A stretch of DNA of 64,000 bases from Roseburia intestinalis L1-82 (lineage in GTDB: Bacteria > Bacillota > Clostridia > Lachnospirales > Lachnospiraceae): the NCBI RefSeq assembly GCF_900537995.1, contig NZ_LR027880.1, forward strand, positions 3,875,001 through 3,939,000. Direction: 5' to 3'. The notes beneath the pieces are model-generated. The model had not been told where the DNA came from, did no database searches, and worked only from the letters and a program-made list of their open reading frames with translations. Positions 30,303 to 51,355 of this stretch are shown here, piece after piece. Position numbers and translations under genes: made by a program. The stretch's first letter is position 1, and the number at the start of each line of letters is the position of its first letter.

Positions 30303-30358
30303 AATTACTCGATAACTGTAGCAACACGTCCAGATCCTACTGTACGTCCACCCTCACG
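30303..30358. repeat. Attachment-site repeat copy 1 (stranded tuf 3' end)
   Basis: These 56 bases, AATTACTCGATAACTGTAGC to CCACCCTCACG, are identical to 44376-44431 and 51300-51355. On the minus strand they encode [17 protein letters not shown] and the TAA stop of EF-Tu. Flanks differ after the repeat. This copy keeps the chromosomal sequence downstream of tuf, so it is the left junction of element 1 (attL). Confidence 0.92.
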
Positions 30359-30645
30359 TTATTTGAATACCGTATTTCTGCATATTTTCTATGCTTTTGG
30401 GTGGCAAAATCCGCATAAAACTGCTGTTTTTACACAGTGTATTTTTATTTGCTTAAGTTCTTGGCACCGTTTTGGCACCGTAGGTACTTCATCTTCCTTT
30501 ACTACTATAAACTGGAATTTATATAATTATCTCTCTAACTTTCCCCATTTTATAGGCTTTCCCGCCTGTCCATTAGTGAAATGATATGTAGTTTCCCTTA
30601 TTTTTACCCTTATGAGATAATCACAAGGGAAATAAGGGAATTTTT
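30359..30645. other. Left arm of element 1
   Basis: No gene is seen in these 287 bases. TTGGCACCGTTTTGGCACCG (30461-30480), a direct repeat of TTGGCACCG, is identical to 51197-51216 at the right end of element 2; it is a candidate integrase arm-binding site. TTTCCCTTATTT at 30592-30603 pairs with AAATAAGGGAA at 30630-30640 and may end the integrase transcript. Confidence 0.6.
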
Positions 30646-31941
30646 TTAATCATTGCCTACCACTTTATCAAGAAGCCTAACTGATTTTCGTTTAGCATCT
30701 CTTGTGGAGTGAGCATAGACATTCATTGTGGTACTTACATCTGAGTGTCCTAACAGTTCCTGCACATCTTTTGGGGCAGCTCCATTTGCTAAAAGGTTGC
30801 TTGTATAGGTGTGACGTAACTGGTGGAAATGAAAGCCTTCAAATCCCTCTAATGTTTTTGCCACCTTTCTGCAAACAGTCCCCAAAGTAGTTGGAAGTTC
30901 CAGACAACCATCCGGTCTTAAACAGACGAAAGAAATTTCTTTATAATCTGCCGGGACTTCCTCTGTTCTGTCTAAGCAATAATATTCGTAGTACACTCTG
31001 TTTTTCTCTTTGACCGCTTTGTAGTAGTTCGTGTGATAAAGTTCTCCGTACTGCATTCGATTTTTTAACTGCTCTTTCCGGGCATTACGGAAAATCTCTA
31101 CCAGCGTATCTCCAAAATCAACAATCCTCACTTTTTTCCGCTTAGTTGGTCCGATGATATATTTGCGCTTTGAGCCATCATATCGGATGCTGCGTCTTAT
31201 GGTAAGGCATTGTTCTTCCAGATTTACGTCCTGCCATGCCAAACCACAAGCTTCTCCAATACGAAGCCCGGCATAATAGGCTATCTGGATTGGAAGTATT
31301 GCGGCTGGGTTCTTTTTTTGAAGATACGCAAGCAGTCTTTCATAATCTTCTCGTGAAATTGGTTGGATATTTCCGTCCATGTCCTCATCCGAAAACAAAT
31401 CAACTTCGTCCGTCTGATACCGCAGTTTAATATACTGCATGGGATTGAACGTAATATACTGTTTTGGAAATACTGCAAAGCGGAAGGACTGCTGCATGAC
31501 TGCGGAAAAAGAATGGATGTAATCTTTGCTGTAACCCTTTCTCTCTTTTCCATCGGGATGAACTCCCCCAAAGGAAAGCAAATCAAAGAAGGATTGCAAA
31601 TGCTCAGAGGTTACATTTTTTAATTTCCGTTCTGCCAATGGGTGTTTCTTAATATTTCGGATTGTTCCGAGGTAATTCTCCACAGTACCATTGCTGAGCG
31701 TACCTGTTTTTAATTCCTCCTCTGCCCACACATCCAGAAGTTGTCCGACTGTGAGATTTTCCGCTTTGGCAACAAATTTCTTTTTCTCATAATCATCCAT
31801 TGCCTGACGGAGCAGCTTTTCAGTTTCACTTTTGCTTTCTGTTCCAACGCATTCTTTCTGAACAAGATTGCCGCTTGCGTCCTCTACATAGAAGCGGTAG
31901 TACCATTTCTTTCCTTTTTTTCTTACAGATCCTTTTGCCAT
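30646..31941 (-). CDS. Site-specific tyrosine recombinase (integrase of element 1)
   Basis: From ATG 31941 the protein has 431 residues. MAKGSVRKKGKKWYYRFYVE is an N-terminal arm-DNA-binding domain, a SAM-like core-binding domain spans about 60-170, and the catalytic domain has R227 (YAGLRIGE), H373-x-x-R376 (HFHQLRH), H399 (LLGHS) and Y409 (MNVYAH). All catalytic residues are present. It lies 290 bases inside the left junction. AAAGGAGATATACGATT gives the start; the frame extends ten codons further. Its target is inferred to be the tuf 3' end. Confidence 0.94.
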   Translation of the reverse strand: MAKGSVRKKGKKWYYRFYVEDASGNLVQKECVGTESKSETEKLLRQAMDDYEKKKFVAKAENLTVGQLLDVWAEEELKTGTLSNGTVENYLGTIRNIKKHPLAERKLKNVTSEHLQSFFDLLSFGGVHPDGKERKGYSKDYIHSFSAVMQQSFRFAVFPKQYITFNPMQYIKLRYQTDEVDLFSDEDMDGNIQPISREDYERLLAYLQKKNPAAILPIQIAYYAGLRIGEACGLAWQDVNLEEQCLTIRRSIRYDGSKRKYIIGPTKRKKVRIVDFGDTLVEIFRNARKEQLKNRMQYGELYHTNYYKAVKEKNRVYYEYYCLDRTEEVPADYKEISFVCLRPDGCLELPTTLGTVCRKVAKTLEGFEGFHFHQLRHTYTSNLLANGAAPKDVQELLGHSDVSTTMNVYAHSTRDAKRKSVRLLDKVVGND

Positions 31942-32027
31942 AATCGTATATCTCCTTTCGATATTAGACAATCGGAACTGATGAAATGCTTCGTGCGTGT
32001 AAGTATATCATAACTCCGGCTGTCTTA

Positions 32028-32657
32028 CTATACCGATTCGGAATCTTCGTATAAGACTTCTGATAAAAGATTTGCAAGCCTTTGCTCTGCTGTTTTGGGT
32101 TTCTTGGAATAGAGCCTTACGATGTCTGCCATCTCATTAAAAGCATTGATGGTGTGAGTGATTTCCCTTAAGAACATAATCTCATTATATTCATCATTCG
32201 ATTCAAACCCTATTGTTTTGGCAATATCCGTCTGACCATCATTCCCCTTAAAGTTTTTGCAGGCGAACTGAAAGGAATCCAAAAACAGACCATATTGTTT
32301 TAACATCAGCAGTAATAAATCTTTTGAAAAAGCATCTTCTTCTTTGGTAAGGGCAAGTGGTAACTGTTCCAGAATATCTCCCATCGCATCACGAATCTGT
32401 AATTCTCTCTTATCCGTAATATCGGTTTCATATTCATCTGTTTCCCCTTTGAGCCATTCCACAGATACATGGAGTGCTTCCGAAAGACCTTCCAACACCA
32501 TTTTTTTCGTATTGTCAATCGAACCATTCTCATAACGCAGGATTGTAGAAGCGGTAACACCCATCTTTTCTGCGACATAAGGCTGTGTCAGATTCAATTC
32601 CAGACGGCGCTGTTTTACTCTGCTCCCTATCAGCTTGCGTAATTCTTTATCTTTCAT
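32028..32657 (-). CDS. XRE-family repressor of element 1
   Basis: The 209-residue protein has an N-terminal helix-turn-helix (about residues 10-65, VKQRRLELNLTQPYVAEKMG and TILRYENGS) and a helical C-terminal part with no protease motif. It is divergent from the excisionase gene and its promoter region has two palindromic sites (ATTGCA-N3-TGCAAT), one on its own -35. It probably represses itself and xis, keeping the element integrated. AAAGGAGG lies nine bases before ATG 32657. Confidence 0.85.
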   Translation of the reverse strand: MKDKELRKLIGSRVKQRRLELNLTQPYVAEKMGVTASTILRYENGSIDNTKKMVLEGLSEALHVSVEWLKGETDEYETDITDKRELQIRDAMGDILEQLPLALTKEEDAFSKDLLLLMLKQYGLFLDSFQFACKNFKGNDGQTDIAKTIGFESNDEYNEIMFLREITHTINAFNEMADIVRLYSKKPKTAEQRLANLLSEVLYEDSESV

Positions 32658-32687
32658 GCTGACTGCCTCCTTTTTCGGTATGTATGA

Positions 32688-32810
32688 ATTATAGCATTGT
32701 TTTTCCGAAATTGCAATATGCAATACAAAGTTTGTTTTTAATATTTCGTAACGCTTGACAAAAAGATATGAAAAGGATATACTTACATCACAAGAATTGC
32801 ATAATGCAAT
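32688..32810. promoter_or_regulatory. Divergent promoters and two palindromic operators (XRE/xis switch)
   Basis: Minus strand: TTGCAA (32711-32716), 17 bases, TATAAT (32688-32693) with TG extension, for the XRE gene. Plus strand: TTGACA (32755-32760), 17 bases, TATACT (32778-32783), for xis. Operators ATTGCAATATGCAAT (32710-32724) and ATTGCATAATGCAAT (32796-32810) share ATTGCA-N3-TGCAAT. The first covers the XRE -35, the second the xis transcription start. This is a textbook lysogeny-like switch, read from sequence. Confidence 0.8.
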
Positions 32811-32828
32811 TTATAAGGAGGTGATTAT

Positions 32829-33059
32829 ATGACGCAAAGAAAAATTGCATTATCCATCGAAGAAGCTGCTGACTATACGGGAATCGGCAGAAATACCTTA
32901 AGACAGCTTGTAGAATGGAAGAAACTTCCAGTATTAAAGGTTGGTCGCAAAGTCCTGATTAAAACCGATATTCTGGAAATGTTTATGGAAGCGAATGAAG
33001 GTCGTGATTTGAGGGATAGAGGAAATGTAAAAGCCGTAACAAGAACTGCGGCAAATTAA
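32829..33059 (+). CDS. xis: Excisionase, Tn916 Xis-like winged helix
   Basis: The 76-residue protein begins MTQRKIALSIEEAADYTGIG and continues RNTLRQLVEWKKLPVLKVGR and KVLIKTDILEMFM, the helix-turn-helix plus wing of small excisionases of the Tn916/MerR-like group. It would bend DNA at the left arm and turn the integrase to excision. AAGGAGGTGATTAT precedes the ATG and a strong repressed promoter lies 46-74 bases upstream. Confidence 0.88.
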   Translation: MTQRKIALSIEEAADYTGIGRNTLRQLVEWKKLPVLKVGRKVLIKTDILEMFMEANEGRDLRDRGNVKAVTRTAAN

Positions 33060-33199
33060 AAAGGCGGCTTCCAAAGAAACCGCCAAAGGTTCTATCAGAC
33101 CGAAGCCATGATATACCTACACGCAAGAAGATTATACCATGTGCTTCTTCTGATACGCAACCAAGAACTTATGTTTGCAAAAGAAAGGGGAATGTAATA

Positions 33200-33514
33200 A
33201 TGGCAAAATCAACAAAAAGTTATGAAGAACGAATGCTTGAAATGGAAAAGAAGGAACAGGAAAGCCTTGAAAAAGCAAAACGATATGCAGCACAGAAGAA
33301 AGAACTTCTGAAACGAAAGAAAGCCGAAGAAAGTAAAAAACGAACCCATAGGCTCTGTCAGGTTGGCGGTGCGGTGGAATCCGTTCTTGGTGCGCCTATT
33401 GAGGAGGAAGACATCCCAAAGCTGATTGGTTTTCTGAAAAAGCAGGAAGCCAATGGAAAATTTTTCTCAAAGGCAATGCAGAAAGAAACAAATACCGATA
33501 TGGAGGAAGTGTAA
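33200..33514 (+). CDS. DUF3847-like small protein, next to the relaxase
   Basis: The 104 residues have a lysine/glutamate-rich coiled coil (about 1-48) and then THRLCQVGGAVESVLGAPIE and LIGFLKKQEANGKFFSKAMQ, which I recognise as the DUF3847 pattern found next to MobQ relaxases in Firmicute elements. It may be an accessory that binds oriT, similar in position to MobC; this role is inference. GAAAGGGGAATGTAATA precedes the start. The oriT lies just after its stop. Confidence 0.7.
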   Translation: MAKSTKSYEERMLEMEKKEQESLEKAKRYAAQKKELLKRKKAEESKKRTHRLCQVGGAVESVLGAPIEEEDIPKLIGFLKKQEANGKFFSKAMQKETNTDMEEV

Positions 33515-33560
33515 TGACGGAGGGGATGAGTTTTTCATTCCCTTCATTGCTTTTTCATGA

Positions 33561-33600
33561 AGGGCGCACTTATGGACAACCAGAGGTCGTCCAAATAAGT
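33561..33600 (-). other. Predicted oriT, RSF1010/MobQ type
   Basis: The minus strand reads ACTTAT-TTGGAC ... GTCC-ATAAGT directly followed by GCGCCCTTC. This gives an inverted repeat next to TAAGTGCGCCCT, which is the RSF1010 nic region (known cut after TAAGTGCGC). Order and spacing are as in MobQ origins. It lies 240 bases before the relaxase start. Confidence 0.8.
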
Positions 33601-33841
33601 TTGCCACAAGTGGCAACCGGTCTGCGCTCACGCTTGCCGGGCTCGTTCCGTCGGCGGGGCTTTCAGCCAGACCTGCTCATGCCGCAGGAGGCACTCTTCG
33701 CCAGAGGGGCGCATTCCATGCAGGCTGTTATGCGCAGGGCACTCTTACGCAGAGGGCGTTCCGTCAATGCTGCTTTTTCTAAAACTGAAAGCAATGTTGC
33801 CGGAAATCTATGCCGGATGTGCAGAAAGGAGGAATCCAGAC

Positions 33842-35563
33842 ATGGCGATTTTTCATTACACAGTCAAAATAGTCGGACGAAGTAAAGGGAAATCTATTAT
33901 CTCCGCTTCCGCATATCTCAATGGGGATGTGATGAAAAATGAGGAAACCGGGCGAATCAGTTATTACACATCTAAAAAAGAAGTGGTCTACACCCGACTG
34001 ATGATGTGCGAAAACGCACCTCCTGAATGGCAGATAGTACCAGAAGAAAATATAAAACGCTTTCAAAAATCTGTCCGATACAAAAGGTCAGAAGATAAAG
34101 AAGCTGCCTTAAAAAAATTCAAAATCACATTTCAGAAACAAAGGTTATGGAATGAGGTATTGAAGATTGAAAAAAGTGCAGATGCCCAACTTGGCAGGTC
34201 ATTTGAATTTGCCCTCCCAAAAGAATGGAGCAGACAGGAACAAATTCAATATACAACCGACTATATCCAAAAAACTTTTGTAGATAGAGGAATGTGCGCT
34301 GATTGGAGTATCCACGACAAAGGGGATGGCAACCCCCATGTCCATCTGCTTCTAACTATGCGTCCTTTTAACCCGGATCATTCTTGGGGAAAGAAAGAAG
34401 TCAAGGATTGGGATTTTGTCAGAGATAAAAACGGAAATATCGTGATTGATGAATCCCATCCGAACTGGTGGCAGGATAAGAAAAACCCTGACCGTCATGG
34501 AATCCGTATCCCTGTATTAGACGAAAACGGAATTCAGAAGATTGGAGCAAGAAACCGCCTGCAATGGAAACGGGTGCTGACCGATGCTACTGGATGGAAC
34601 AATCCAAAAAATTGTGAACTGTGGCGGAGTGAATGGGCAAAGGTATGTAATGAACATCTGCCTTTGCATAATCAAGTTGATCATCGTTCTTATGAAAAGC
34701 AGGGAAAACTCCAGATTCCTACCATCCATGAAGGAGCTGACGCAAGAAAGATTGAACAAAAGTTTTTTGCCGGGCAGGAAATAAAAGGCTCGTGGAAAGT
34801 AGCGGAAAATCAAATCATAAAACAACAAAACACGTTATTGCAAAAGATACTAAACACCTTTGGGAAAGTATCGGGTGCATTATCATTATGGAAGGAGCGA
34901 TTAAATGACATTAGAAGAAAGCCGGGAAATTATACCCTTAATGGAATCCATGATTGGTCAAATCGAAGAACAGCAGAACCTAATGGCAGAAATGATTCTG
35001 GAAATGCAGAACCGGGACACTCAACTCTCTCTTATGCAAAAACAGAATCAGAAATTACAAAAATTAAACAACGAGTTATCCGAGCTGCTCAACATTTTGC
35101 CAAATACCGAGGAACTGCTTTCCAAGATGGAAGAACAGAAAACGAAGATAGAGCTTTTGGAAAACGAAAATCAGCAATGGCAGAAATTGGCACAGAAGCT
35201 GAACAGCGAAAACAGTTTATTACTGAAACAGAACACCGAATTGCTGAACTGGAACAGCAGATAGAGAAAGGACGTGATATAGATGAACGAATCCAGAGAA
35301 TCAAAGAACGCCGAACAGTTGGAAGAACTTCTGCTCTTGACCGAGGAGATACAAGAAGAACTAGAACAGAAAGAACAGCTTATCGTGGAACTGAAGACGC
35401 AGCTCAGCGAATCTCTGACCTTGAACGAGAAATTAAACAAAGAGAACAGAGCCGGGAATATTCAAGCATTAAAGAACGACTTGAAGCTGGCAGACAGAGC
35501 ATTGCGGATCGAGAAAGAGAAGTTGCGAAGCGCAAACGTCATGATAGAGGAATGTCAAGATAA
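33842..35563 (+). CDS. mobA: MobQ (MobA/MobL) family relaxase
   Basis: From ATG 33842 (AAAGGAGGAATCCAGAC upstream) the protein has 573 residues. MAIFHYTVKIVGRSKGKSII and SASAYL contain the N-terminal motif I; the metal-binding histidines are H158, H166 and H168 (IHDKGDGNPHVHLLLTMRPF). The C-terminal third, about residues 355-573, is arginine- and glutamate-rich and predicted helical. It nicks oriT at 33561-33600 and pilots the strand. The last 660 bases overlap two other genes in a different frame. A longer frame starts at 33767 but passes the ribosome binding site. Confidence 0.92.
   Translation: MAIFHYTVKIVGRSKGKSIISASAYLNGDVMKNEETGRISYYTSKKEVVYTRLMMCENAPPEWQIVPEENIKRFQKSVRYKRSEDKEAALKKFKITFQKQRLWNEVLKIEKSADAQLGRSFEFALPKEWSRQEQIQYTTDYIQKTFVDRGMCADWSIHDKGDGNPHVHLLLTMRPFNPDHSWGKKEVKDWDFVRDKNGNIVIDESHPNWWQDKKNPDRHGIRIPVLDENGIQKIGARNRLQWKRVLTDATGWNNPKNCELWRSEWAKVCNEHLPLHNQVDHRSYEKQGKLQIPTIHEGADARKIEQKFFAGQEIKGSWKVAENQIIKQQNTLLQKILNTFGKVSGALSLWKERLNDIRRKPGNYTLNGIHDWSNRRTAEPNGRNDSGNAEPGHSTLSYAKTESEITKIKQRVIRAAQHFAKYRGTAFQDGRTENEDRAFGKRKSAMAEIGTEAEQRKQFITETEHRIAELEQQIEKGRDIDERIQRIKERRTVGRTSALDRGDTRRTRTERTAYRGTEDAAQRISDLEREIKQREQSREYSSIKERLEAGRQSIADREREVAKRKRHDRGMSR
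34905..35264 (+). CDS. Coiled-coil protein nested in another frame of mobA
   Basis: This 119-residue frame lies wholly inside mobA, in the +1-shifted frame. Its ATG has AAGGAG seven bases upstream. The product MTLEESREIIPLMESMIGQI and following LSLMQKQNQKLQKLNNELSE forms a clear heptad coiled coil with no membrane segment. The regular heptads and strong ribosome binding site argue for real expression. The partner is unknown; it may be the next gene in the same frame, which also begins with a coiled coil. Confidence 0.6.
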   Translation: MTLEESREIIPLMESMIGQIEEQQNLMAEMILEMQNRDTQLSLMQKQNQKLQKLNNELSELLNILPNTEELLSKMEEQKTKIELLENENQQWQKLAQKLNSENSLLLKQNTELLNWNSR

Positions 35564-36248
35564 AATATGCTATTTAACACAGGAACGGGATTATGCCCGG
35601 ACACATCAGAAAATCGTAGAAATACCGGTAGAAAAGCCGGTACTCTATGAAAAATGTGAAGCCTGTAACCGGACAGCCTATCAGAATGCAAAAGCAAAAT
35701 ACGAAACACAAAAAGAGCGACTTGCAGGACAGTATAAAGCAAAAACGGTAATGTTCCAAACAACCTTGTTCCTTCTTGCATGGTATTCGTTGACAACCAC
35801 TCTTTTTCAGGCAGTACAGTCAGATATGTTCCTTGTCGATTGTAAATTATTTTTCAACGATTTAACATCATTCATACAGACTTTTATCGGATGGACGATT
35901 GATGCCGGGCAATCTGCGGCACAGATCAGCACAAAAATTCCAAATGCTTTTATAGCCGGAATGGTATATTGGTTATTGCTAATATTGATTGTAGGAATAT
36001 GTATGGCAGGAACAGGGATGCTGGCGATACTGATAGAAATAAAGGTTATAGAATTATATAAGAAAAACTGTTGGGATGTTATTACTCTACTAATGATACT
36101 GACAAGTGTTGCTATTGTCATTTATTTTGGAGAATCAATCAAAAAAGTACTGTCAGTAAATCTTCTATTGCTTTTCGTACTTTCGCAGGGCGCATATGTT
36201 GGAATTAGATGTTATCTTAAAGTTTGGTTAGAAAAAAGACCATATTAG
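35283..36248 (+). CDS. Coiled-coil membrane protein overlapping the mobA 3' end
   Basis: The 321-residue product starts 281 bases before the mobA stop, in the frame of the preceding nested gene. Residues about 1-95 form an acidic coiled coil, CEACNR (near 124) is a possible metal knuckle, and three to four membrane helices follow (about 155-175, 215-240, 263-283, 290-310). GAAAGGACG lies ahead of the ATG. I recall such proteins as a DUF (perhaps DUF6040) next to MobQ relaxases. A role in docking the relaxosome at the membrane is possible but not shown. Confidence 0.75.
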   Translation: MNESRESKNAEQLEELLLLTEEIQEELEQKEQLIVELKTQLSESLTLNEKLNKENRAGNIQALKNDLKLADRALRIEKEKLRSANVMIEECQDKICYLTQERDYARTHQKIVEIPVEKPVLYEKCEACNRTAYQNAKAKYETQKERLAGQYKAKTVMFQTTLFLLAWYSLTTTLFQAVQSDMFLVDCKLFFNDLTSFIQTFIGWTIDAGQSAAQISTKIPNAFIAGMVYWLLLILIVGICMAGTGMLAILIEIKVIELYKKNCWDVITLLMILTSVAIVIYFGESIKKVLSVNLLLLFVLSQGAYVGIRCYLKVWLEKRPY

Positions 36249-36355
36249 TATTTTCAACTTACTGTATAGACAGTAAAATTACTCCATACCAGCCTAGTGA
36301 AAATTTACTGTATGAAAAGAAGTATTACAGAGAAAAAAGGCTGTAAAAACAGGAA

Positions 36356-36387
36356 CAGCCAGCCCGAAAGAATTTACGGACTGGCTG
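36356..36387. other. Hairpin between the mob genes and the ABC genes
   Basis: CAGCCAG and CTGGCTG pair around CCCGAAAGAATTTACGGA (CCG/CGG extend the stem). It ends the convergent stretch 36249-36443; no T-run follows on the plus strand, and the remaining bases show no gene. Confidence 0.5.
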
Positions 36388-36443
36388 TATCAGCAGAGTA
36401 ATGTAATTGTGGAGCTGACCGAGATATGAAAAGCTTTCTATCA

Positions 36444-38771: not shown

Positions 38772-38785
38772 AATTCCCACCTCCT

Positions 38786-43947: not shown

Positions 43948-43952
43948 ATCAA

Positions 43953-44309
43953 TTACACATAAACTATATCTCTCAACACCACTTCTTCCGCACAGTGCCG
44001 GATATTGTTCATCATTCCAACCCACTGCATTTGGTTCTCCGACTTCAACTGCTCCGTTACTCTTTGCTTTACTTTCATCCACTCCACCAACTGCTCCATC
44101 ATCTGATAACATTCTTCGTCCATCTGGTGCAGATATTCATTTAAATTTCCATCCAACAGCAATTCCAGATACAATGCTCTATGGTACTCTTTCAGATACT
44201 CTGCTCGCATCCGTCCGTATCTGCCGATTTCATAATGCGTTCCTTCCGGGAGTCGGAGATCCGGATAATACAGACCATCCTCTTTGGCACCGCTCACACC
44301 CATCTTCAT
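43953..44309 (-). CDS. tnpV: TnpV-like protein at the right end of element 1
   Basis: The 118-residue protein reads MKMGVSGAKEDGLYYPDLRL then GRYGRMRAEYLKEYHRALYL, matching TnpV of Tn4451/Tn4453-type clostridial elements. TnpV is not essential for excision there; its role is unclear. The ATG lies inside the 149-bp repeat shared with element 2, 67 bases past the tuf stop copy, and has no clear ribosome binding site, so it may be read from tuf or from the gene upstream. In element 2 the same start exists but the rest is gone. Confidence 0.75.
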   Translation of the reverse strand: MKMGVSGAKEDGLYYPDLRLPEGTHYEIGRYGRMRAEYLKEYHRALYLELLLDGNLNEYLHQMDEECYQMMEQLVEWMKVKQRVTEQLKSENQMQWVGMMNNIRHCAEEVVLRDIVYV

Positions 44310-44431
44310 TATTATCGCATGTAAAAAGGGTTCCGGAGAAATCTCCGAAACCCTTGAATTTACTGAATAATATTTAATTACTCGATAACTGTAGCAACAC
44401 GTCCAGATCCTACTGTACGTCCACCCTCACG
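44283..44431. repeat. 149-bp right-end repeat of element 1 (includes attachment copy 2)
   Basis: These 149 bases are identical to 51207-51355. They contain the first nine codons of tnpV, a terminator hairpin (AAGGGTTTCGGAGA/TCTCCGGAACCCTT form), and the 56-bp tuf 3' end (44376-44431). It is the right junction of element 1 and the left junction of element 2. It carries a spare tuf 3' end and terminator. Confidence 0.92.
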
Positions 44432-44590
44432 AGCTTTAGGAAATTAAATCGGAATGTTTTTCGTTGATTTTACTGCATATTTTTATTCACATTCTCCATT
44501 TTTTCTCTTTATTTTTGTGATTACAAAAAATTTTAGAGCCAAAATAGAGCCACTCCAAAAATACCGATTTTCTCCTTAATTACCTTTATT

Positions 44591-44610
44591 ACATGGTGCT
44601 AGCACCATGT
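44591..44610. repeat. Perfect 20-bp palindrome after the deaminase-like gene
   Basis: ACATGGTGCTAGCACCATGT is its own complement. It lies 41 bases past the deaminase-like gene stop. On the minus strand it is followed by AATAAAGG rather than a T-run, so it is either a weak terminator or a protein site. Also in this left arm, AGAGCCAAAATAGAGCCAC at 44536-44554 is a short direct repeat that may be an integrase arm site. Confidence 0.7.
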
Positions 44611-44650
44611 TTAGATATGATCAATAAGGAAGTCTGCAATTTCAATTTGT

Positions 44651-45598
44651 CTATATAATTATAGGTTTTAGTCCATTTTTTCTTATGTTTTCTAATTCTT
44701 CTGCTGTTAAGCACTGAAACTCATAAAGCCGTAGATATTCTTTGGATACATCTGAATCAAATATTAATACATCATCGGAATTTATAGTAACATCAACACC
44801 ACTACGATACAGTTTTCCAATCGGATGCATAGACATATCTGCTACCCTTCCAAGTAAAATATTACTTGTTGGTGTAATATTTAATCTAATTTTATTATCT
44901 GCCAAAAAACGGATTACTGATTCATCACTGACTGCCGCTATCCCATGCTGAACCTCATCAAGTTCTAATTCTTCTACGGCTGTTCTTACGTCTTTAGCAG
45001 TCCCCCATTCTCCGACGTGTGCTTTTAGCCTTAATCCTTCTTTTTTTGCACGCCGATAAATTCCTTTAAAATTTTCGATAGGTTGTGCTAATTCATCACC
45101 GTACAAATCAATAGAATAAAAATTCTTATTTCCCCAAAAATATGATAAACAATCTTCTAAATAACTGATCGAACAATGTCTTGATAATCCAATTTGAAGC
45201 CTTAATTCTATATCGGGAGCGATTTCTTTTTGAGCACTTGTAAAAGCATTAACCAACTCATCAATATCATTATTAAAAAATTCGTTTAAGCCCCACACAT
45301 CTTCACCAATTTCAAGCACAGTTACTCCATCCTCTCTGGCTTGTTGAAATGTTGCTCTGATCAAAAATTTTCTCATCGCAGTGCTATTAAAGTCTTGACT
45401 AATATATTTTTGACTCCATTGATTCATCTCATCCATTGATGACAAAGGATTAGCTAATGGCTCAATTTTTTTTCGAGTTTCCTGATATATGAACCGTCTA
45501 TTTCCGCCAAGCACAAAATGATTGTGCAAATCTGCCTTAGGATACTTTCTTAACTCTTCCAGATTTCTTTGTTCCAATGCATCTGTAAAACCATTCAC
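44651..45598 (-). CDS. Adenosine deaminase-family enzyme (element cargo)
   Basis: The 315-residue protein keeps all residues of the adenosine/AMP deaminase fold: HxH at H25/H27 (KADLHNHFVLGG), H194 and E197 (KAHVGEWG), H218 (VQHGIAAVSD) and the D275-D276 pair (TINSDDVLIF). LNITPTSNILL is also typical. So it should bind zinc and hydrolyse an adenine nucleoside or related amine. It is slightly short at the C-terminus, ending NGLKPIII. No signal peptide. AGGAGGAAACGTATTTGTG precedes the start. It stands at the element end, a usual place for cargo; purine salvage or defence are both possible. Confidence 0.82.
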   Translation of the reverse strand: MNGFTDALEQRNLEELRKYPKADLHNHFVLGGNRRFIYQETRKKIEPLANPLSSMDEMNQWSQKYISQDFNSTAMRKFLIRATFQQAREDGVTVLEIGEDVWGLNEFFNNDIDELVNAFTSAQKEIAPDIELRLQIGLSRHCSISYLEDCLSYFWGNKNFYSIDLYGDELAQPIENFKGIYRRAKKEGLRLKAHVGEWGTAKDVRTAVEELELDEVQHGIAAVSDESVIRFLADNKIRLNITPTSNILLGRVADMSMHPIGKLYRSGVDVTINSDDVLIFDSDVSKEYLRLYEFQCLTAEELENIRKNGLKPIII

Positions 45599-45690
45599 AA
45601 ATACGTTTCCTCCTATGTTTTTAATTTTCTCTACAATTTTTTCCTTTTAATTGTAGCACTTTTCCCTCATCCCGACTACCATAAAAAACA

Positions 45691-45712
45691 GGGCATGACA
45701 ACCACCATGCCC
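45691..45712 (-). terminator. Terminator of the mob operon
   Basis: GGGCATGGTGGTTGTCATGCCC on the minus strand folds into an eight-base-pair stem and is followed by TGTTTTTT. It separates the mob genes from the deaminase-like gene, which is then its own transcript. Confidence 0.85.
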
Positions 45713-45719
45713 CTCTTTC

Positions 45720-46034
45720 CTATCGTTCCAACGCCTTCTCCAGTTTCCATTTCTGTCCTTTCAAATCATTCTGTTTTTCATACAGGCTGTTACGCTCTTT
45801 GCAAAGCTCTTTCATACGCTCCAGCTTCTCCTTTACTCTCGCCCGGCAATCCGGCTCTATCTGCTTATATTCTCCGGTCAGATTACGGATTACATTATTG
45901 TTCTCTTTCATCTGCTCCGACACCAGCACCCAGTCTATCAGATTTTGTACCTCTTTATCGGTATCGTAAAGGTCTGTTTCCGTCAGAATTTTGGCACATA
46001 ACCGCACCATAACTTTCTTCTCCATATCTGTCAT
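45720..46034 (-). CDS. Hypothetical coiled-coil protein after the MobV relaxase
   Basis: The 104-residue soluble protein starts MTDMEKKVMVRLCAKILTET and ends in a charged helical stretch (KEKLERMKELCKERNSLYEK). No known domain. It is 20 bases after the relaxase stop and directly before the terminator, so it is cotranscribed and may be an accessory of mobilization. AAAGGATGGGATTGCTGGA precedes the ATG. Confidence 0.65.
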   Translation of the reverse strand: MTDMEKKVMVRLCAKILTETDLYDTDKEVQNLIDWVLVSEQMKENNNVIRNLTGEYKQIEPDCRARVKEKLERMKELCKERNSLYEKQNDLKGQKWKLEKALER

Positions 46035-46054
46035 TCCAGCAATCCCATCCTTTC

Positions 46055-47425
46055 CTATCTGCCCATATCATAGGCTCGTTTCGGGCGTTTCTCTGCTCTT
46101 TCAGCCTGCTCGATTGTCTTTGACTGTTCCACTATCGCCTGTACCCGTTCCTTGCCGAAATAACGCTCCAAATGCCCCAAATCCGATACTTTTTCCTGCA
46201 ATCTTTCAATCATATCATTCTGCTCCATAGCTTTGTCTGTCAGCCTGCTAATCTGATTCTGCTGTCTGTCCACCTTAACAGTCAGCTTCTTGACCTGCTC
46301 TGTAAGCTGTATACACTTGAGTGTCAGATTTTTTACCAGTTCTTTCAGCTTTTGCACAAGCGGCAGAGCCTTTTTATCCCGGTATGCCTTTGCGCTCATC
46401 AACGTACCCGGTTCCGGTAACTGCCACTTCTCATCTTCATCATAAGTGTGAATATTCCGCTCCATAGTTTCCTTAGACTGCACCATCTTATTGATTTCCC
46501 GCTGTAATTTCTTCTGCTGGCTCTCCAAATTTTCATTTTCCGATAGCAGTTTTTCCTTATCCTCCGACAATATTTCTGTCTGCTCTTTCAGCCAGTCACT
46601 TTCTGCTGAAAGCTCTGACACCTCCTGCCGTATTACTTCGCCCTCTTTGCGTATCTGCTCTGTTTTCTCCTCTGCCATAATCTGCTGATATAAGATATTG
46701 TTTAATTCCACTTTATTATCTGAAAGTGTCTGTTCCAGCTGTGCAACCTCTTTCTGTCGCTCCTGCTTCTCAAAATCAAGTACCGACAAATGCTTGTTGT
46801 GTGTTCCCAAATGTTTCCATTGCACATCATACCGCTCCATGACCTTTGAAAGCTCCTGCTTTTCCGATTCCATCCACTGATTCCATTCCGTTGCCCCTCT
46901 TGTACCGCCCTTAAAGCCCTGCTCTGCCAATGCTCCCTTTAGGGAAACTCTGGTATCAAGTCCACGCTTACTGTTACGGATAAAAGGAACAAAATCAATG
47001 TGAATATGCGGTGTTTCCTCATCCATGTGCAGATGAGCCGAAAACACATAGAGATTCGGATTTCGTTTCTGAAAATCCTGCATATAATCAATCAGAATTT
47101 CCTTTGCAAGCTCTCCCTCTTTGCTTTTTGAGTTCATATCGTCTTTATTGCCAATTTGCAAAATAACCTCATGGAACAGCTTCTCCTGCTTACTCTGTCT
47201 GATTTTTTCATAATAATTATCAATCTTCCGGTTACTTCGTTTCTGCTTTGCATTATACCGCTCCAATGCTTCATCAAATAATTCGTGATATACCTTTTTG
47301 ATACTGGTATTGCAAAACTGCACATTGTAAATGCTCCGTTCCGGGTCAACATTTTTTGCATTAAAAGCTCTCGTATTATGATTGATAGCCCCATTTCCCA
47401 TCATGCCGCTAATCGTTCTCTCCAA
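46055..47425 (-). CDS. MobV-family relaxase (Pre/Mob plasmid recombination enzyme)
   Basis: The protein has 456 residues. Motif I NHNTRAFNAKNVDPERSI, then the catalytic HxH set H131/H133, E136, H140/H142 (SAHLHMDEETPHIHIDFVP) and TRGATEWNQWMESEKQELSK are as in MobV/Pre enzymes of pMV158 and Bacteroides elements. Residues about 210-400 form a long coiled coil. Start is TTG 47425: AGGAGGAGTGTTTA precedes it, and the first ATG seven codons later lacks a site. It would nick an oriT in the 47430-47700 gap. Confidence 0.9.
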   Translation of the reverse strand: MERTISGMMGNGAINHNTRAFNAKNVDPERSIYNVQFCNTSIKKVYHELFDEALERYNAKQKRSNRKIDNYYEKIRQSKQEKLFHEVILQIGNKDDMNSKSKEGELAKEILIDYMQDFQKRNPNLYVFSAHLHMDEETPHIHIDFVPFIRNSKRGLDTRVSLKGALAEQGFKGGTRGATEWNQWMESEKQELSKVMERYDVQWKHLGTHNKHLSVLDFEKQERQKEVAQLEQTLSDNKVELNNILYQQIMAEEKTEQIRKEGEVIRQEVSELSAESDWLKEQTEILSEDKEKLLSENENLESQQKKLQREINKMVQSKETMERNIHTYDEDEKWQLPEPGTLMSAKAYRDKKALPLVQKLKELVKNLTLKCIQLTEQVKKLTVKVDRQQNQISRLTDKAMEQNDMIERLQEKVSDLGHLERYFGKERVQAIVEQSKTIEQAERAEKRPKRAYDMGR

Positions 47426-47698
47426 TAAACACTCCTCCTCTTTTATCTATCATAATAATGCCGAACAGGCACATAAGTTTTGTTACTTTTGTCAAAAGTA
47501 ACGCAAAAGCACTTTTGACAGCTACCGCCATCAAAAATGCAACCCGATAAATCGGGTTTTGCGTCCTGCCGGAAGCTTTTTCTGCCTGCGGCAGTTGTGC
47601 CTGTTCCGGTCACATTGTCATCACTACCACCGTACCATTTTTCCTTAACCATATCATACGGGTGCGTGCCACGCTCCCGTTTTATTCGTCTAAGGAAA
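47426..47698. other. Relaxase upstream region with oriT candidate
   Basis: This gap holds a perfect palindrome GTTACTTTTG-T-CAAAAGTAAC (47482-47502), a partial copy CTTTTGACA nearby and AACCCGAT-AA-ATCGGGTT (47541-47558). MobV origins are near the relaxase start and contain hairpins, so 47482-47502 is the best candidate for oriT. A 94-codon open frame crosses it on the minus strand but looks non-coding. Confidence 0.45.
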
Positions 47699-48031
47699 TT
47701 ACCATCGGAAGCTGTCCGGCACACCACGCTTGTCTAGATATTCCCTACGTGCCTTTTCCTTTTCTTCCTCTGTCGGTGCAGTTTTATACTGCGTATACAG
47801 CTCTCTCATTACCAGGGCATCCATCTTTTTCTCCAATGCCTTAACTATCTCCGGCTCCGTTTCTTCCTGCCCTATGAGAAAATATCTCACGAGCAAAAAG
47901 AACAGTTCCTGCGAAATCTGCACATTCTTCATTTCAATCCACCAATCCTTTCTGCAAGACCGCAACAACGCAATGTCTATATCTTTTGCAACCTTGCAAT
48001 CTTCAAGACCGCATTTCTGTATACTCTGCAT
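47699..48031 (-). CDS. Hypothetical protein following the RepA-like gene
   Basis: The 110-residue protein begins MQSIQKCGLEDCKVAKDIDI. An internal ATG gives MKNVQISQELFFLLVRYFLI, which looks like the start of the conserved part. The C-terminus KEKARREYLDKRGVPDSFRW is charged. Such proteins are common after the replication ATPase on Firmicute mobilizable elements; function is unknown. It starts 21 bases after the ATPase stop. The shorter start at 47933 (71 residues) is also plausible. Confidence 0.6.
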   Translation of the reverse strand: MQSIQKCGLEDCKVAKDIDIALLRSCRKDWWIEMKNVQISQELFFLLVRYFLIGQEETEPEIVKALEKKMDALVMRELYTQYKTAPTEEEKEKARREYLDKRGVPDSFRW

Positions 48032-48052
48032 TGTTGCGTTCTTCCCTTATTC

Positions 48053-49027
48053 CTACTTTACCTTATCCAGTTCCCAGTACCATGCGTTGTTGATTTTTCT
48101 TGCCCGGATACCCAGCTCTTTCTTTGCATTTTCCAGTGTTCGTTTAGAAATTCCCAGTTCATCTGCCCGGTCAAATATCTCATTGCTTAAAACCGCACTA
48201 TGTGTTTCCGCAAGTTCACGTAACATCTGCTTTGCCAGCTCCATTTTATTTGCCTTTGGTGCAATGCCGCCAAGCACCTCATCCACCGTAATCTCATAAT
48301 CTCCAATCCACTGAAAGCCTTCCTCTGATAAGGCAAATGCTTTTGGATGTCCAAATGCTGCAAGGTTATTTTTTATCTGGACAACTGCTCTGGTATTCGG
48401 TTCTCCCTCTACCCTGCCGACCAGAAGAACACTTCTTGCCACTGCAAAGAAATCTATGGAACCCATGCCCCGGTATGCTGCTTTATTGCCGGAAGCCTTG
48501 TTCATGTGACCGATAAGGATAATTGCACACTTTGTTTTCTCTGCCAATGCTCCTAATTTCTTTGTCATATCCCTTGCTTCGTTTGCTCGGTTCATATCCA
48601 TGCCACCGCCCAAATATGCTTGTATCGGGTCTAAAATCAAGAGCCTTGCACCAGTCCTCACAATCGCTTCTTCCAAGCGTTCATCTACCATAGACAGTGA
48701 CTTGTCACTCTCATCAATAACGATAATTCTCTCGCAGTCTGCTCCGGCAAGCTCTAATCTTGGTTTTACTGTATCCGCAAGACCATCCTCCGCAGTCTGG
48801 TATATTACATTGACCGGCTCTGTGACTTTCATATTTTCATCCAGTGCTTCGCCCTTTGACAGCTTTGCCGCCAGATTCAAGACCATTGTTGTCTTTCCGT
48901 CACCCGGATCACCCTGAATAATTGTCAGCTTGCCATAAGGAATGAATGGATACCACAGCCACTCAATCTCCTGCGACTGTACCTCTGACATTCTAATCAT
49001 CTTTAATTCAATCTTCTGTTCTGTCAT
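48053..49027 (-). CDS. RecA-fold AAA ATPase, RepA/helicase-like
   Basis: From ATG 49027 the protein has 324 residues. Walker A is GDPGDGKTT (residues 39-47), Walker B LLILDPIQAYLGG (D133), and LIGHMNKASGNKAAYRGMGS matches motif H4/sensor of hexameric RepA/DnaB-like replicative helicases. A C-terminal helix-turn-helix-like part (FDRADELGISKRTLENAKKE) may bind DNA. It probably supports element replication after excision. GGAGGAGAAA precedes the ATG. Confidence 0.85.
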   Translation of the reverse strand: MTEQKIELKMIRMSEVQSQEIEWLWYPFIPYGKLTIIQGDPGDGKTTMVLNLAAKLSKGEALDENMKVTEPVNVIYQTAEDGLADTVKPRLELAGADCERIIVIDESDKSLSMVDERLEEAIVRTGARLLILDPIQAYLGGGMDMNRANEARDMTKKLGALAEKTKCAIILIGHMNKASGNKAAYRGMGSIDFFAVARSVLLVGRVEGEPNTRAVVQIKNNLAAFGHPKAFALSEEGFQWIGDYEITVDEVLGGIAPKANKMELAKQMLRELAETHSAVLSNEIFDRADELGISKRTLENAKKELGIRARKINNAWYWELDKVK

Positions 49028-49126
49028 TTTCTCCTCCAATTTTAATTTTATAATTGCTACCGGAGAAAACCTCTGCTATACTTAGCTTGTATATACATAG
49101 GATAACAGAGGTTTATCCGGTTATCT

Positions 49127-50209
49127 TTAGTCCTGACAGTTGCCGCTGTTGGGACTTTTTTCTTGTTCATTATCCAGCAAATCTGCAATTCTCCGTTGCT
49201 GATTCGGATATAAGTGACCATAAGTATTTAGGGTAATTCTTATATCCTTATGCCCTAATCTTTCCTTTATCAGAATCGGCTCAATCCCTTTGTTGATGAG
49301 ATATGCTACATGCGAATGCCTTAAATCATGCACTCGGATTTTCTTTACTCCGGCTTTCACCATATTTTGCTTCATCTTATGCTGTACTGCTTCCTGCACA
49401 ATAGGGAAAAGTCTTTCATTCTCCGGCATACCATAATGTCCTTCAATAAATTGCTTTATTTCCTGCTTCAAAAATTCCGGTATTTCTATTGTTCGCACAG
49501 ATTGTTTTGTCTTTGGTTCTGTAATCACATCCTTTCGTTCTGTCCTATAGTACGTTTTTGTGATGCTGATTTGATTTCTTTCAAAGTTTATATCTGCCGG
49601 AGTTAATGCAAGTAGTTCTCCAATTCTGCATCCAGTCCAGAAAAGAATTTCAAAGATGAGATAATATCTTGTTCCCGGTTCTATAGTCTGAATAAACTGC
49701 TGATACTCCTCTGTTGTCCAGAAATCCAAGCTTCTGCTGTCCGAGTTTCCCATCCGCTTTACCTTCTTGCATGGATTCGTATGCAAATCGTAAATCCTTG
49801 AAGCATGAGTAAACAAGCTGGTTAGCTGATTTTGTATCATTCGCAGATATGATTCCGAAAAGCCTTTTGTCTGCATTTCATTCTGCCACTGAATAATCTG
49901 CGAAGCTGATATTTCACTCATCATTTGATTTCCAAAATACGGAATAATATGCTGTTCCATCATATAACGTTTGTTTTTCATGGTACGTTCTTTGAGTTCA
50001 TTCTGTTTGTCCTCAAAATATACCTCCATAAATTCACTCAATTTCATATCCATACTTCGACTGCTATTGAGTTTTTTCTGTCGCTCATATTCCAGAGCTT
50101 CCTTTTTTGTGGAAAATCCTCTCTTTCTTCGTTTTTTCTTTTCGCCCTTTGCATTCGTTTCAAACCACTGGGCAGTCCATTTCTTCGTGTCTTTTTCTTT
50201 GTAAGCCAT
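49127..50209 (-). CDS. Site-specific tyrosine recombinase (integrase of element 2)
   Basis: From ATG 50209 the protein has 360 residues. It starts MAYKEKDTKKWTAQWFETNA (arm-binding, AP2-like), has a core-binding domain about 55-150, and catalytic residues R195 (GCRIGELL), H294-x-x-R297 (VHDLRHSH), H320 (RLGHK) and Y330 (TLNTYGH). All are present. It differs clearly from integrase 1 in length and sequence yet uses the same tuf site. GAGGAGAAGAAAGG precedes the ATG. Confidence 0.94.
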   Translation of the reverse strand: MAYKEKDTKKWTAQWFETNAKGEKKKRRKRGFSTKKEALEYERQKKLNSSRSMDMKLSEFMEVYFEDKQNELKERTMKNKRYMMEQHIIPYFGNQMMSEISASQIIQWQNEMQTKGFSESYLRMIQNQLTSLFTHASRIYDLHTNPCKKVKRMGNSDSRSLDFWTTEEYQQFIQTIEPGTRYYLIFEILFWTGCRIGELLALTPADINFERNQISITKTYYRTERKDVITEPKTKQSVRTIEIPEFLKQEIKQFIEGHYGMPENERLFPIVQEAVQHKMKQNMVKAGVKKIRVHDLRHSHVAYLINKGIEPILIKERLGHKDIRITLNTYGHLYPNQQRRIADLLDNEQEKSPNSGNCQD

Positions 50210-50226
50210 TCCTTTCTTCTCCTCTC

Positions 50227-50421
50227 TTAGTTCGCAGCCAGCTCGTATCCGAACATCTTTTTTGCCCAATATGCTCTTGGAATCCGTCCTGCCATTGTGA
50301 TATATCCCTGCTCCGCAAGTTCCTTATTCATTGCCTTAACCAACTTGTAAGCATAGGACTTGGAACAATCCAGTTCCTTAGCCACATCATCCGCACTCAT
50401 CATATATTGATAGTTCGCCAT
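50227..50421 (-). CDS. Excisionase-like helix-turn-helix protein
   Basis: The 64-residue protein starts MANYQYMMSADDVAKELDCS and continues KSYAYKLVKAMNKELAEQGY and ITMAGRIPRAYWAKKMFGYE, a winged helix-turn-helix of the kind found just upstream of integrases. It is 17 bases before the integrase start, so the two are coupled. GGGAGGATGAATAT precedes ATG 50421. Confidence 0.8.
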   Translation of the reverse strand: MANYQYMMSADDVAKELDCSKSYAYKLVKAMNKELAEQGYITMAGRIPRAYWAKKMFGYELAAN

Positions 50422-50484
50422 ATATTCATCCTCCCTTCTCATTCTACAATTCCGTTACAACTCTTGTATTTTTGTTGTGTACGA

Positions 50485-50640
50485 TTTTCGTAAATTCATA
50501 TTATCACTGTCCGTAAATAATGTCAATACTTCGTAAATAATATTTTACGGTTTTCGTAATTCTAAAATTATGTAATTTTCACTTTTATGTTTTTCGTAAA
50601 TGTGATATGATAACAATTGGATTTATGTTTTTCGTAATTA
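50485..50640. promoter_or_regulatory. Array of six TTCGTAA sites between xis and XRE genes
   Basis: TTTTCGTAAAT (50485), TCCGTAAAT (50510), CTTCGTAAAT (50529), TTTTCGTAAT (50551), TTTTTCGTAAAT (50590) and TTTTTCGTAATTA (50628) are direct repeats; an inverted ATTTTACGG lies at 50542. They fill the promoter gap between the excisionase-integrase genes and the regulator at 50669, so they are probably its operators; replication iterons are an alternative given the ATPase gene. Confidence 0.75.
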
Positions 50641-50668
50641 CTTTGTCTATGAAAATAGGAGGTTACTT

Positions 50669-51151
50669 ATGGGCGATGGAAAGAAATTAAAAGAGTACCT
50701 TGATGAAAAAGGTACAAATGTACGCAGAATTGCAAAAGAAACCGGCATTAGTGCCACCACGTTATACACGATTATTCAAAAAGATTCCAATATCCGCTTT
50801 GACTTTGCACTTCGTCTTGCCAATGCTTTAGATATTGATGTGAATGAGATATGCTCTGCAAGTCCTTTCTCTGGAGCTATTACCGAAGAAGAAATATATC
50901 CCACTCTCCCAGATGGATTGAATGGAGCCTTGGATGCAAGCAGAGTCAAAACCTACTTGAAAAACTCTCTCTATCCACTTATGTACCTATTCGGTAAAAA
51001 TAGTATGCCGGATGTGGATAATCTTCTGACTTCTTTTTATCAGTTGGATGATGAAGCTAGGAAAGAAGTGGTTGAAACGATACAATTCAAACTACAATAT
51101 CACAGAGATCCCGAACGGGCAGAACAGGTAAAACAGATTAAGGGATGGTAA
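50669..51151 (+). CDS. XRE-family regulator of element 2
   Basis: The 160-residue protein has a helix-turn-helix at the N-terminus (MGDGKKLKEYLDEKGTNVRR, IAKETGISATTLYTIIQKDS) and a helical C-terminal part ending EQVKQIKGW. It is divergent from the excisionase gene across the TTCGTAA array. It probably controls excision. AGGAGGTTACTT precedes the ATG; a terminator at 51159-51191 follows. Confidence 0.85.
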   Translation: MGDGKKLKEYLDEKGTNVRRIAKETGISATTLYTIIQKDSNIRFDFALRLANALDIDVNEICSASPFSGAITEEEIYPTLPDGLNGALDASRVKTYLKNSLYPLMYLFGKNSMPDVDNLLTSFYQLDDEARKEVVETIQFKLQYHRDPERAEQVKQIKGW

Positions 51152-51158
51152 GAAAAAA

Positions 51159-51191
51159 GCTCTGTTGAATAGCAAAATTCAACGGAGTTTT
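51159..51191 (+). terminator. Terminator of the XRE gene of element 2
   Basis: CTCTGTTGAAT pairs with ATTCAACGGAG around AGCAAA, followed by TTTTTCTTTTT on the plus strand. On the minus strand it also ends in TTTTTTC, so it may act for tuf read-through. Confidence 0.82.
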
Positions 51192-51206
51192 TCTTTTTGG
51201 CACCGT

Positions 51207-51355
51207 TTTGGCACCGCTCACACCCATCTTCATTATTATCGCATGTAAAAAGGGTTCCGGAGAAATCTCCGAAACCCTTGAATTTACTGAATAATATTTA
51301 ATTACTCGATAACTGTAGCAACACGTCCAGATCCTACTGTACGTCCACCCTCACG
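51207..51355. repeat. 149-bp right-end repeat of element 2 (includes attachment copy 3)
   Basis: Identical to 44283-44431. Here it holds the real 3' end of tuf (51300-51355), the terminator stem at 51250-51279 and the start of a tnpV relic: MKMGVSGAK then a different sequence. TTGGCACCGTTTTGGCACCG at 51197-51216 spans its edge and equals 30461-30480. Confidence 0.92.
51250..51279 (-). terminator. Present tuf terminator, brought by element 2
   Basis: On the minus strand AAGGGTTTCGGAGA pairs with TCTCCGGAACCCTT and TTT follows. It lies 22 bases after the tuf stop. The same hairpin is in copy 2; the original chromosomal one is different and lies at 30240-30269. Confidence 0.88.

Follow-up and report, generated by a model that had tools for sequence, protein, structure and literature searches.

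The 3′ end of tuf as a probable attachment site for a diverse family of mobilizable elements, illustrated by a stacked chimera and integrase-less remnant

The 3′ end of tuf, the gene for EF-Tu, very probably serves a diverse family of integrative and mobilizable elements (IMEs) as attachment site, and two members of that family are stacked behind the gene in a 64-kb stretch of DNA (bases 3875001–3939000 of a one-contig 4.49-Mb genome; hereafter the window, with positions counted from its first base) in the order tuf – A1 – A2 – chromosome. On the same strong footing, we regard the tuf-proximal unit, A1, as a chimera of two elements and the distal unit, A2, as a remnant. Feature coordinates are collected in Table 1, and other loci and genomes are designated by L and G numbers, respectively.

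RESULTS

Exact tuf-tail repeats bracket two units behind tuf

The window's genome holds a single tuf (one full-length match), the tail of which recurs as three exact copies of a 56-bp repeat that, in the orientation of tuf (minus strand), comprises the final 17 codons, the TAA stop and 2 bp. A 54-bp core allowing up to three mismatches gives three matches in the window and none in 100 shuffles, which confirms the repeats described in the earlier note on this DNA and rejects a chance origin; an assembly error is rejected by the argument that the genome is one contig and that each kind of arrangement recurs in other genomes. Two tuf-bracketed units stand in tandem, as that note had also proposed. 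Between the two tuf-proximal copies, identity spans 149 bp (44283–44431 = 51207–51355), and so extends 93 bp beyond the 56-bp repeat into the left end of the element.

In two genomes of the same genus with an empty site (L231 and L232), a terminator hairpin resembling the window's distal one lies within about 35–75 bp after tuf, and the flank including the core is 69% and 76% identical, respectively, to the distal flank of the window. Because L231 and L232 have such a hairpin behind tuf, the distal flank is taken as ancestral and the intervening 21 kb as inserted. Gene-order comparison beyond tuf found no relatives, in the tuf loci examined, of the EamA-type gene that follows the distal core. 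A terminator-like hairpin in the A1 left end now stands behind tuf; it is identified from the fold of 51235–51301 (−26.2 kcal/mol, z −6.93), the consensus terminator scanner having made no call there on that strand. We read tuf as intact, A1 apparently supplying the final 17 codons together with the stop and a terminator.

The tuf 3′ end is a recurrent insertion site

In a family sample of 299 genomes from 298 genera, the last 99 bp of tuf gave at least one match in 247 genomes and at least two in 43, whereas the last 99 bp of its neighbour fusA, used as a control, gave at least one match in 219 and at least two in only 3 (the multi-match genomes, like the IntA rows near tuf below, were counted by eye from tables). 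With the window's own genome left out, the multi-match counts are 42 versus 3 of 298 (Fisher p 2e-10), in agreement with the earlier suggestion of a hotspot. We judge the family to be Lachnospiraceae from its named relatives. Within the genus, a tuf-tail match is present in 43 of 60 genomes (at least two in 11), and empty, single and double-filled sites are all represented: besides L231 and L232, one insert lies behind tuf in G351 (L235), and the one-contig genome G314 (L234) has two units with tails 8.4 and 12 kb past the stop. The empty loci and single insertions for which a search had been recommended were thus found, together with double-filled sites. In half of the first 20 multi-match genomes retrieved, the stretch examined contains a tail that has no tuf body attached, so that the second match in those 10 does not come from a second tuf gene. 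On these sequence comparisons, the tuf 3′ end appears to be an attachment site and insertion hotspot across the family.

As a separate observation, the live tuf tail of L048 (762–815) and the next tail (10907–10960) differ in the last residues of EF-Tu (…ATIIE versus …ATLID), and similar small tail differences occur in L049, L060, L152, L157, L169, L235 and L236.

IntA relatives reside at tuf and vary in arm type

A scan of genome contigs with IntA, the integrase of A1, yielded 41 named loci, including Roseburia and Acetatifactor metagenome-assembled genomes (MAGs), Parablautia intestinalis and Lachnospiraceae strains A2, A4 and GAM79. The tuf core or its remnant is present at 34 of these (29 with the tail by pattern, three with a diverged tail, L164, L165 and L174, plus L140 and L151); the seven loci not counted as tuf are contigs of <6 kb (L145, L160, L163 and L167) or partial matches (L175, L177 and L178). 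The candidacy of L151 as an IntA element away from tuf was overturned by a scarred core at the expected place. Of the 24 rows in the family sample with at least 50% identity to IntA, 17 share a contig with tuf and are placed no more than about 11 kb downstream of it; the other seven are on contigs other than that of tuf. From the location of its relatives, IntA appears to be the integrase of the tuf site and would be the enzyme acting at tuf here.

Many units carry direct repeats of 11-bp period at both ends which, from their position and the Arm-DNA-bind_4 domain, are probably arm-type integrase sites. Such sites are known in Tn916 and lambda. The right arms lie 119–121 bp before the core where read (120 bp in L240), and the left arms mostly 84–88 bp past the stop, with others at 97–112 and 177–214. 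Eight arm types occur in integrase-bearing units (GGTGCC, GGCTCT, GGCTCC, GGCTAC, GATAAC, GATACT, GGCAAC and GACAAC), and the IntA relatives beside tuf cores, which range down to 40% identity, cover eight left-arm types that track the clades of the integrase tree, except that GGCTCT appears in two clades (L234 and L056). Among the 17 distinct closed units that have an integrase and could be read at both arms, 14 have like arms, the count being drawn from 18 rows with L161 and L235 dropped (left arm outside the exact rule; both look mismatched) and L058 and L159, on the same contig, counted once.

IntA relatives of 34–39% identity lie directly behind tuf on the opposite strand in L241, L246 unit 0 and L243, perhaps representing another integrase lineage, and a contig labelled as a Muribaculaceae MAG (L169) has a tuf element of this family, for which a mislabelled bin is suspected.

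A1 is a chimera joined at an oriT-like site

A1 has its own site-specific integrase (Phage_integrase, SAM-like and arm domains), direct repeats flanking a specific site that is empty in relatives and a relaxase of the Mob_Pre family, as would be expected of an IME; it also has a candidate origin of transfer (oriT). No family of a conjugation apparatus is present among the nine A1 open reading frames (ORFs) scanned, the other small ORFs being outside that scan. Both relaxases of the window, of MobV and MobQ type, score below NCBIfam's own cut-offs and above those of Pfam, and the excisionase candidate of A1 has no Pfam match. Homologues of the stretch around the perfect palindrome ACATGGTGCTAGCACCATGT precede right ends of both arm types in several relatives.

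The two ends of A1 carry different arms, GGTGCC on the left and GGCTCT on the right (GGCTCTATTTTGGCTCT). Window 47580–44368, which spans the oriT-like site, MobV, the adenosine deaminase, the right end and the core, aligns to unit 0 of L234, which comes from a different species of the genus, with 99.4% identity over 3,214 bp. In a base-by-base comparison, the near-identity begins at 47517; to the left of this point the two differ, with 12% of the left kilobase alignable, an L234 integrase 64% identical to IntA and GGCTCT arms at both ends of L234. The left half of A1 is found in turn in L140, with 98.5% identity over 3.9 kb. This MAG contig begins within the tuf core and stops ∼50 bp beyond the oriT palindrome, a pattern that branching of the assembly at both repeats would give.

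The switch at 47517 falls within a stretch whose fold is a double hairpin (z −5.2), 15 bp before a palindrome, GTTACTTTTGACAAAAGTAAC. Variants of the palindrome retain pairing in relatives, its exact form starts 78–132 bp before the relaxase match, and the stretch is conserved across units (matches of 21–84 bp at 88–100%); we take it as a candidate oriT. A second case is provided by the stacked units 0 and 1 of L051 (G232), which are 99% identical over the kilobase to the right of the oriT-like site and differ to the left of it, the change lying ∼60 bp before the palindrome. A1 is a chimera of two tuf elements joined at this site, presumably by recombination at oriT within a stack or between a co-resident pair. 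In MobV/Pre plasmids (pT181, pE194 and pMV158), recombination takes place at the RSA/oriT site; A1 is alike in relaxase family (Pfam Mob_Pre) and in a junction at a presumed oriT, with the difference that the event would here have occurred in chromosomal IMEs.

Such a junction need not involve the relaxase. Ordinary homologous recombination or deletion between tandem elements in the conserved oriT stretch has, in our estimate, slightly better than an even chance of being the route to A1, given that the stretch is conserved across units, that the elements stand in tandem so that RecA-dependent exchange would suffice, and that one other junction lies in mobV. Against it stands the position of the two switches, which precede one and the same palindrome by 15 bp and about 60 bp; relaxase joining would give this pattern too, and it does not separate the two routes.

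A2 has the ends of a tuf element and no integrase of its own

Over about 180 bp, the right end of A2, GGTGCC arms included, shares 76–78% identity with those of the IntA-type elements L044, L048 and L058, and its left end matches that of A1 up to the first arm half, beyond which it continues as tnpV. There is no IntA or MobV relative in the A2 unit, and we count it as lacking an integrase or relaxase of its own because the IntB, Xis and MobQ genes within it belong to a transposon (30509–42110) that is also sited far from tuf elsewhere (see below). Its 315-amino-acid ORF has no Pfam or PADLOC match. With cores and ends kept (left arm cut) and the integration and transfer genes lost, A2 fits a cis-mobilizable element (CIME), to judge from its gene content.

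The outermost arms of the 21-kb stack, that of A1 next to tuf and that of A2 next to the chromosome, match each other (both CGGTGCCAAAACGGTGCC). The block could accordingly be one composite for IntA in which the outermost GGTGCC arms are functional and the inner core, the GGCTCT right arm and the half left arm go unused, a reading to which we give close to, though short of, an even chance. The identity of the outer arms, the different type of the inner right arm, the cut in the inner left arm and the 14 of 17 units with like arms all favour it, whereas the naturally mismatched units L153 and L236, and a degenerate arm motif with both versions of which IntA may work, detract from it. It is unlikely that the block is instead a dead, fixed scar in which neither unit moves: A2 has no int or mob and the A1 arms are unlike, but the main genes of A1 look intact, its left half recurs in L140 and its right half in G314, and other tuf elements are 95% identical over 6–10 kb between genera whose tuf genes are only 82–85% identical.

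A Tn916-like transposon is nested in A2

IntB relatives at E 1e-70 or better occur in 33 of the 299 genomes, with identities of up to 99%. Window 30494–42114 (11.6 kb) aligns over its full length at 99.2% to L094 in G138, a genome of another genus, where its near end is 76 kb from tuf, and a second copy in the window's own genome (L107, G000:C1:4452878-4464107), ∼96% identical in the outer parts, is likewise away from tuf. The ends, AAACTGGAATTTAT and CAACTTGAATTTAT, abut varied flanks (11 stretches compared at one end, 4 at the opposite one), and only the window's own stretch, among 22 stretches at 15 distinct places, has a tuf tail beside intB. Because of these ends of its own, the varied flanks, the copies elsewhere and the absence of the tuf tail from the other intB places, the IntB/Xis/MobQ region is read as a nested transposon and not as a tuf element. 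It carries genes for an ABC transporter and a two-component system as cargo. In IMG/VR, a scan with IntB gave no relative. The best solved relatives of IntB are PDB 6emy/6en0/6emz (‘Int protein’), which we take to be Tn1549 Int, and the element resembles transposons of the Tn916/Tn1549 type in its tyrosine recombinase, Tn916-Xis and varied targets. Tn916 carries a conjugation module; in the nested element, by contrast, the ORFs scanned include just a MobQ-type relaxase and not the full module, so that it is Tn916-like in integration only.

These results redraw the arrangement given in the earlier note, in which each module had its own integrase, excisionase and relaxase and both integrases appeared to use tuf. 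The genes are indeed present in 44432–51299 and 30359–44375 (the Xis of A1 being weakly supported), and the remark that the integrases share little sequence holds on direct comparison (IntA and IntB are 20% identical), but the second set belongs to the nested transposon and the use of tuf by IntB is not supported. The idea of unrelated integrases sharing the site fails for IntB and survives elsewhere, in the IntA relatives of down to 40% identity and a prophage integrase beside tuf cores. That two different IMEs stand in tandem, each with its own tuf-specific integrase, is very improbable, since both ends of the IntB element (30509 and 42110) fall within the unit and the same element recurs elsewhere with unrelated flanks, even though integrase and relaxase genes are present in each bracketed unit and tuf-element arms lie close to IntB. 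Beyond what had been noticed before are the 149-bp identity of the tuf-proximal copies, the transposon nature of the second integrase, Xis and MobQ, and the unlike arms of A1.

Integrase-less units and a prophage at tuf

The tuf-bracketed units without an IntA relative are eight closed ones (A2 included) plus L045 and L054 with damaged tails. Among the part of their ORFs that was scanned, several of these units have genes of defence type: L045 has a type II restriction–modification (R–M) system and an AbiU-like protein; L057 an R–M block 88% identical to that of L045 and a PDC-S46 protein; L060 a type I R–M system and a Hachiman-type helicase; L054 Vsr, a type II restriction enzyme, a C5 methyltransferase and GmrSD; L154 RelB/ParE; and L251 PDC-S31. 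Defence-type genes were not found in the scanned ORFs of L237 (only DUF7010) or L252 (nothing). L054 has both ends of the type of the integrase-bearing L042 at 91–93%, and the last 2.3 kb of L057 is common with L042 at 88.6%, which suggests, without proof, that integrase-less cassettes derive from full elements and may be served by them.

In an IMG/VR record, a tuf core marks the start of a prophage with terminase, portal, major head protein and tape measure genes. L269:1448-2632 and L270 show a prophage with tail and head genes extending from the tuf core, the integrase lying 76 bp beyond on the opposite strand, and L264, which has the same IMG number as the prophage record, also has a tuf-core junction.

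Table 1. Features of the tuf locus in window coordinates
Feature	Coordinates	Strand	Evidence or remark
tuf (EF-Tu)	51302–52489	-	Pfam GTP_EFTU domains; single copy
Core copy 1, tuf/A1 junction	51300–51355	-	Exact repeat
Terminator-like hairpin in A1 left end, now behind tuf	51247–51279	-	Fold
A1, putative IME, chimeric	44432–51299	-	
A1 left arm repeat CGGTGCCAAAACGGTGCC (GGTGCC type)	51199–51216	-	
Helix-turn-helix (HTH) regulator	50669–51151	+	Pfam HTH_26/HTH_19/HTH_3
Probable excisionase (weak)	50227–50442	-	NCBIfam ICEBs1 Xis 35.6 bits, below cutoff 100
IntA, apparent tuf integrase	49127–50269	-	Arm-binding, SAM-like, catalytic (Phage_integrase) domains; relatives at tuf
AAA_25 ATPase	48053–49039	-	Pfam
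oriT-like double hairpin	47480–47545	-	Palindrome 47482–47502
MobV-type relaxase	46055–47425	-	Pfam Mob_Pre; NCBIfam MobV 49.4 bits, cutoff 100
Adenosine deaminase cargo	44651–45598	-	Pfam; NCBIfam NF006856 above cutoff
Perfect 20-bp palindrome ACATGGTGCTAGCACCATGT just inside right arm	44591–44610	.	Surroundings homologous in several relatives
A1 right arm repeat GGCTCTATTTTGGCTCT (GGCTCT type)	44535–44551	-	Unlike left arm
Core copy 2, A1/A2 junction	44376–44431	-	Exact repeat
A2, probable integrase-less tuf-element remnant split by transposon	30359–44375	-	
A2 left end, joined into tnpV	44283–44375	-	Same as A1's, cut inside arm
5′-truncated tnpV	43953–44309	-	Pfam TnpV 134.8 bits; longer gene in L161, L236
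315-amino-acid ORF, no family	42163–43110	-	
Nested Tn916-like transposon	30509–42110	.	Ends AAACTGGAATTTAT (from 30509) / CAACTTGAATTTAT (to 42110)
Transposon cargo: FtsX permease, ABC ATPase, histidine kinase, response regulator	36444–41428	-	
MobQ-type relaxase	33767–35563	+	Pfam MobA_MobL; NCBIfam MobQ 168 bits, cutoff 200
Tn916-type excisionase	32829–33059	+	Pfam Tn916-Xis PF09035 34.8 bits, cutoff 22.9
IntB, tyrosine recombinase	30646–31971	-	Pfam; relatives away from tuf
A2 right arm repeat CGGTGCCAAAACGGTGCC (GGTGCC)	30463–30480	-	As in IntA-type elements
Core copy 3, A2/chromosome junction, displaced original tuf tail	30303–30358	-	Exact repeat; related flank after tuf in empty relatives
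Original chromosomal tuf terminator, now ∼21 kb from tuf	30240–30269	-	Terminator scan; fold z −4.95; similar hairpin behind tuf in L231, L232

DISCUSSION

The observations can be assembled into a scheme in which IntA would recombine the attP of a circular element with the last 17 codons of tuf, the inserted element supplying its own copy of these codons, the stop and a terminator, which would leave EF-Tu intact and displace the old tail and terminator downstream. The new junction beside tuf would again be a good target, and units would therefore stack. The sequences themselves show the site, its empty and filled states, the nesting, the chimera and the unlike arms, whereas the function of the repeats as arm sites, the action of IntA at this locus, the history of the stack and the route to the chimera are deduced from them. 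We infer the order of events in the present stack as follows: A2 would be the older element, which lost its integrase and relaxase and was then struck by a Tn916-like transposon carrying IntB and MobQ. The left half of A1 (left arm, HTH regulator, Xis, IntA and ATPase) would come from an element with GGTGCC arms and the right half (MobV, adenosine deaminase and right arm) from one with GGCTCT arms; with halves from parents of different arm type, the cognate right arm of IntA would therefore now be that of A2. If IntA reads GGTGCC arms, the outer pair (51199–51216 and 30463–30480) is predicted to let A1 and A2 leave jointly.

Several points weigh against this interpretation. The mobility of the elements is deduced from sequence. 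In the other 10 of the 20 multi-match genomes, there is no second tail in the stretch examined, and a second tuf gene is possible there. The oriT assignment is a call from position, hairpins and conservation, and a plasmid search with the oriT-like stretch returned only two weak, unannotated matches; nor do all junctions fall at oriT, as L146 and L153 part about 500–600 bp inside mobV. Unlike arms occur in 3 of the 17 units (A1, L153 and L236), so that a mismatch may be tolerated. Finally, simple accretion does not account for the 149 bp over which the left ends of A1 and A2 are identical; this would need gene conversion or a shared parent.

A tandem accretion scheme, in which an element decays to an integrase-less remnant and another integrates beside it, is set out in three steps in the available part of a 2017 review of IMEs and CIMEs (PMC5704250). 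Like the IMEs described there, A1 has a site-specific integrase, a relaxase and no conjugation apparatus seen; the differences are that the site here is tuf, that the chimera is joined at an oriT-like site and that its arms are unlike. In streptococci, integrative and conjugative elements (ICEs) are reported in the 3′ ends of rplL, rpsI, lysS, rpmG and guaA with repeats of 12–54 bp, as is a low-specificity element inserted into a site-specific one (2016, PMC4701971, available part). The 3′ end of a conserved housekeeping gene with repeats and the insertion of one element into another are thus common to both systems, whereas the streptococcal elements differ from the IMEs, integrase-less cassettes and prophage found at tuf here. 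In the accessible text of these two papers, ‘tuf’ does not occur, nor does ‘elongation factor’ in that of the review, in line with the earlier statement that tuf is not known as a well-described site. That statement needs qualifying in one respect, as the esp pathogenicity island of Enterococcus faecium U0317 has its 5′ end downstream of tuf; the usual site of this island is downstream of rpsI, and the tuf position in the one strain is ascribed by the authors to a rearrangement (PMC2858755, available part). One end downstream of tuf is shared with the present case; the bacteria and the element are different. In the available parts of PMC10568018, PMC5210298 and PMC11513463, tuf appears only as a marker, control or promoter. 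We did not find tuf as a family-wide attachment site in the literature searched, and it may be in print elsewhere, most subscription journals being outside the search. Accretion of IMEs beside CIMEs and the use of housekeeping 3′ ends as sites are established knowledge; family-wide use of tuf and a chimera joined at an oriT-like site are what appears to be new.

More broadly, and tentatively, tuf may serve as a cassette dock for the whole family, in which integrases distinguished by their arms would share one core, cassettes (several of them anti-phage) would be carried in trans, MobV would reshuffle integration and cargo halves at oriT, and elements with mixed ends would travel only as composites. 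We regard this extension as a possibility rather than an expectation.

A docking site in an essential gene thus recurs across a large gut family, the searched literature recording the tuf position once, as an enterococcal rearrangement, and the locus shows how an element can occupy the EF-Tu gene and yet leave it unbroken. Empty, single, stacked, chimeric and integrase-less sites form a natural series in which the role of the arms in integrase choice and the construction of chimeras by relaxases could be tested, and tuf is a place to look for defence genes.

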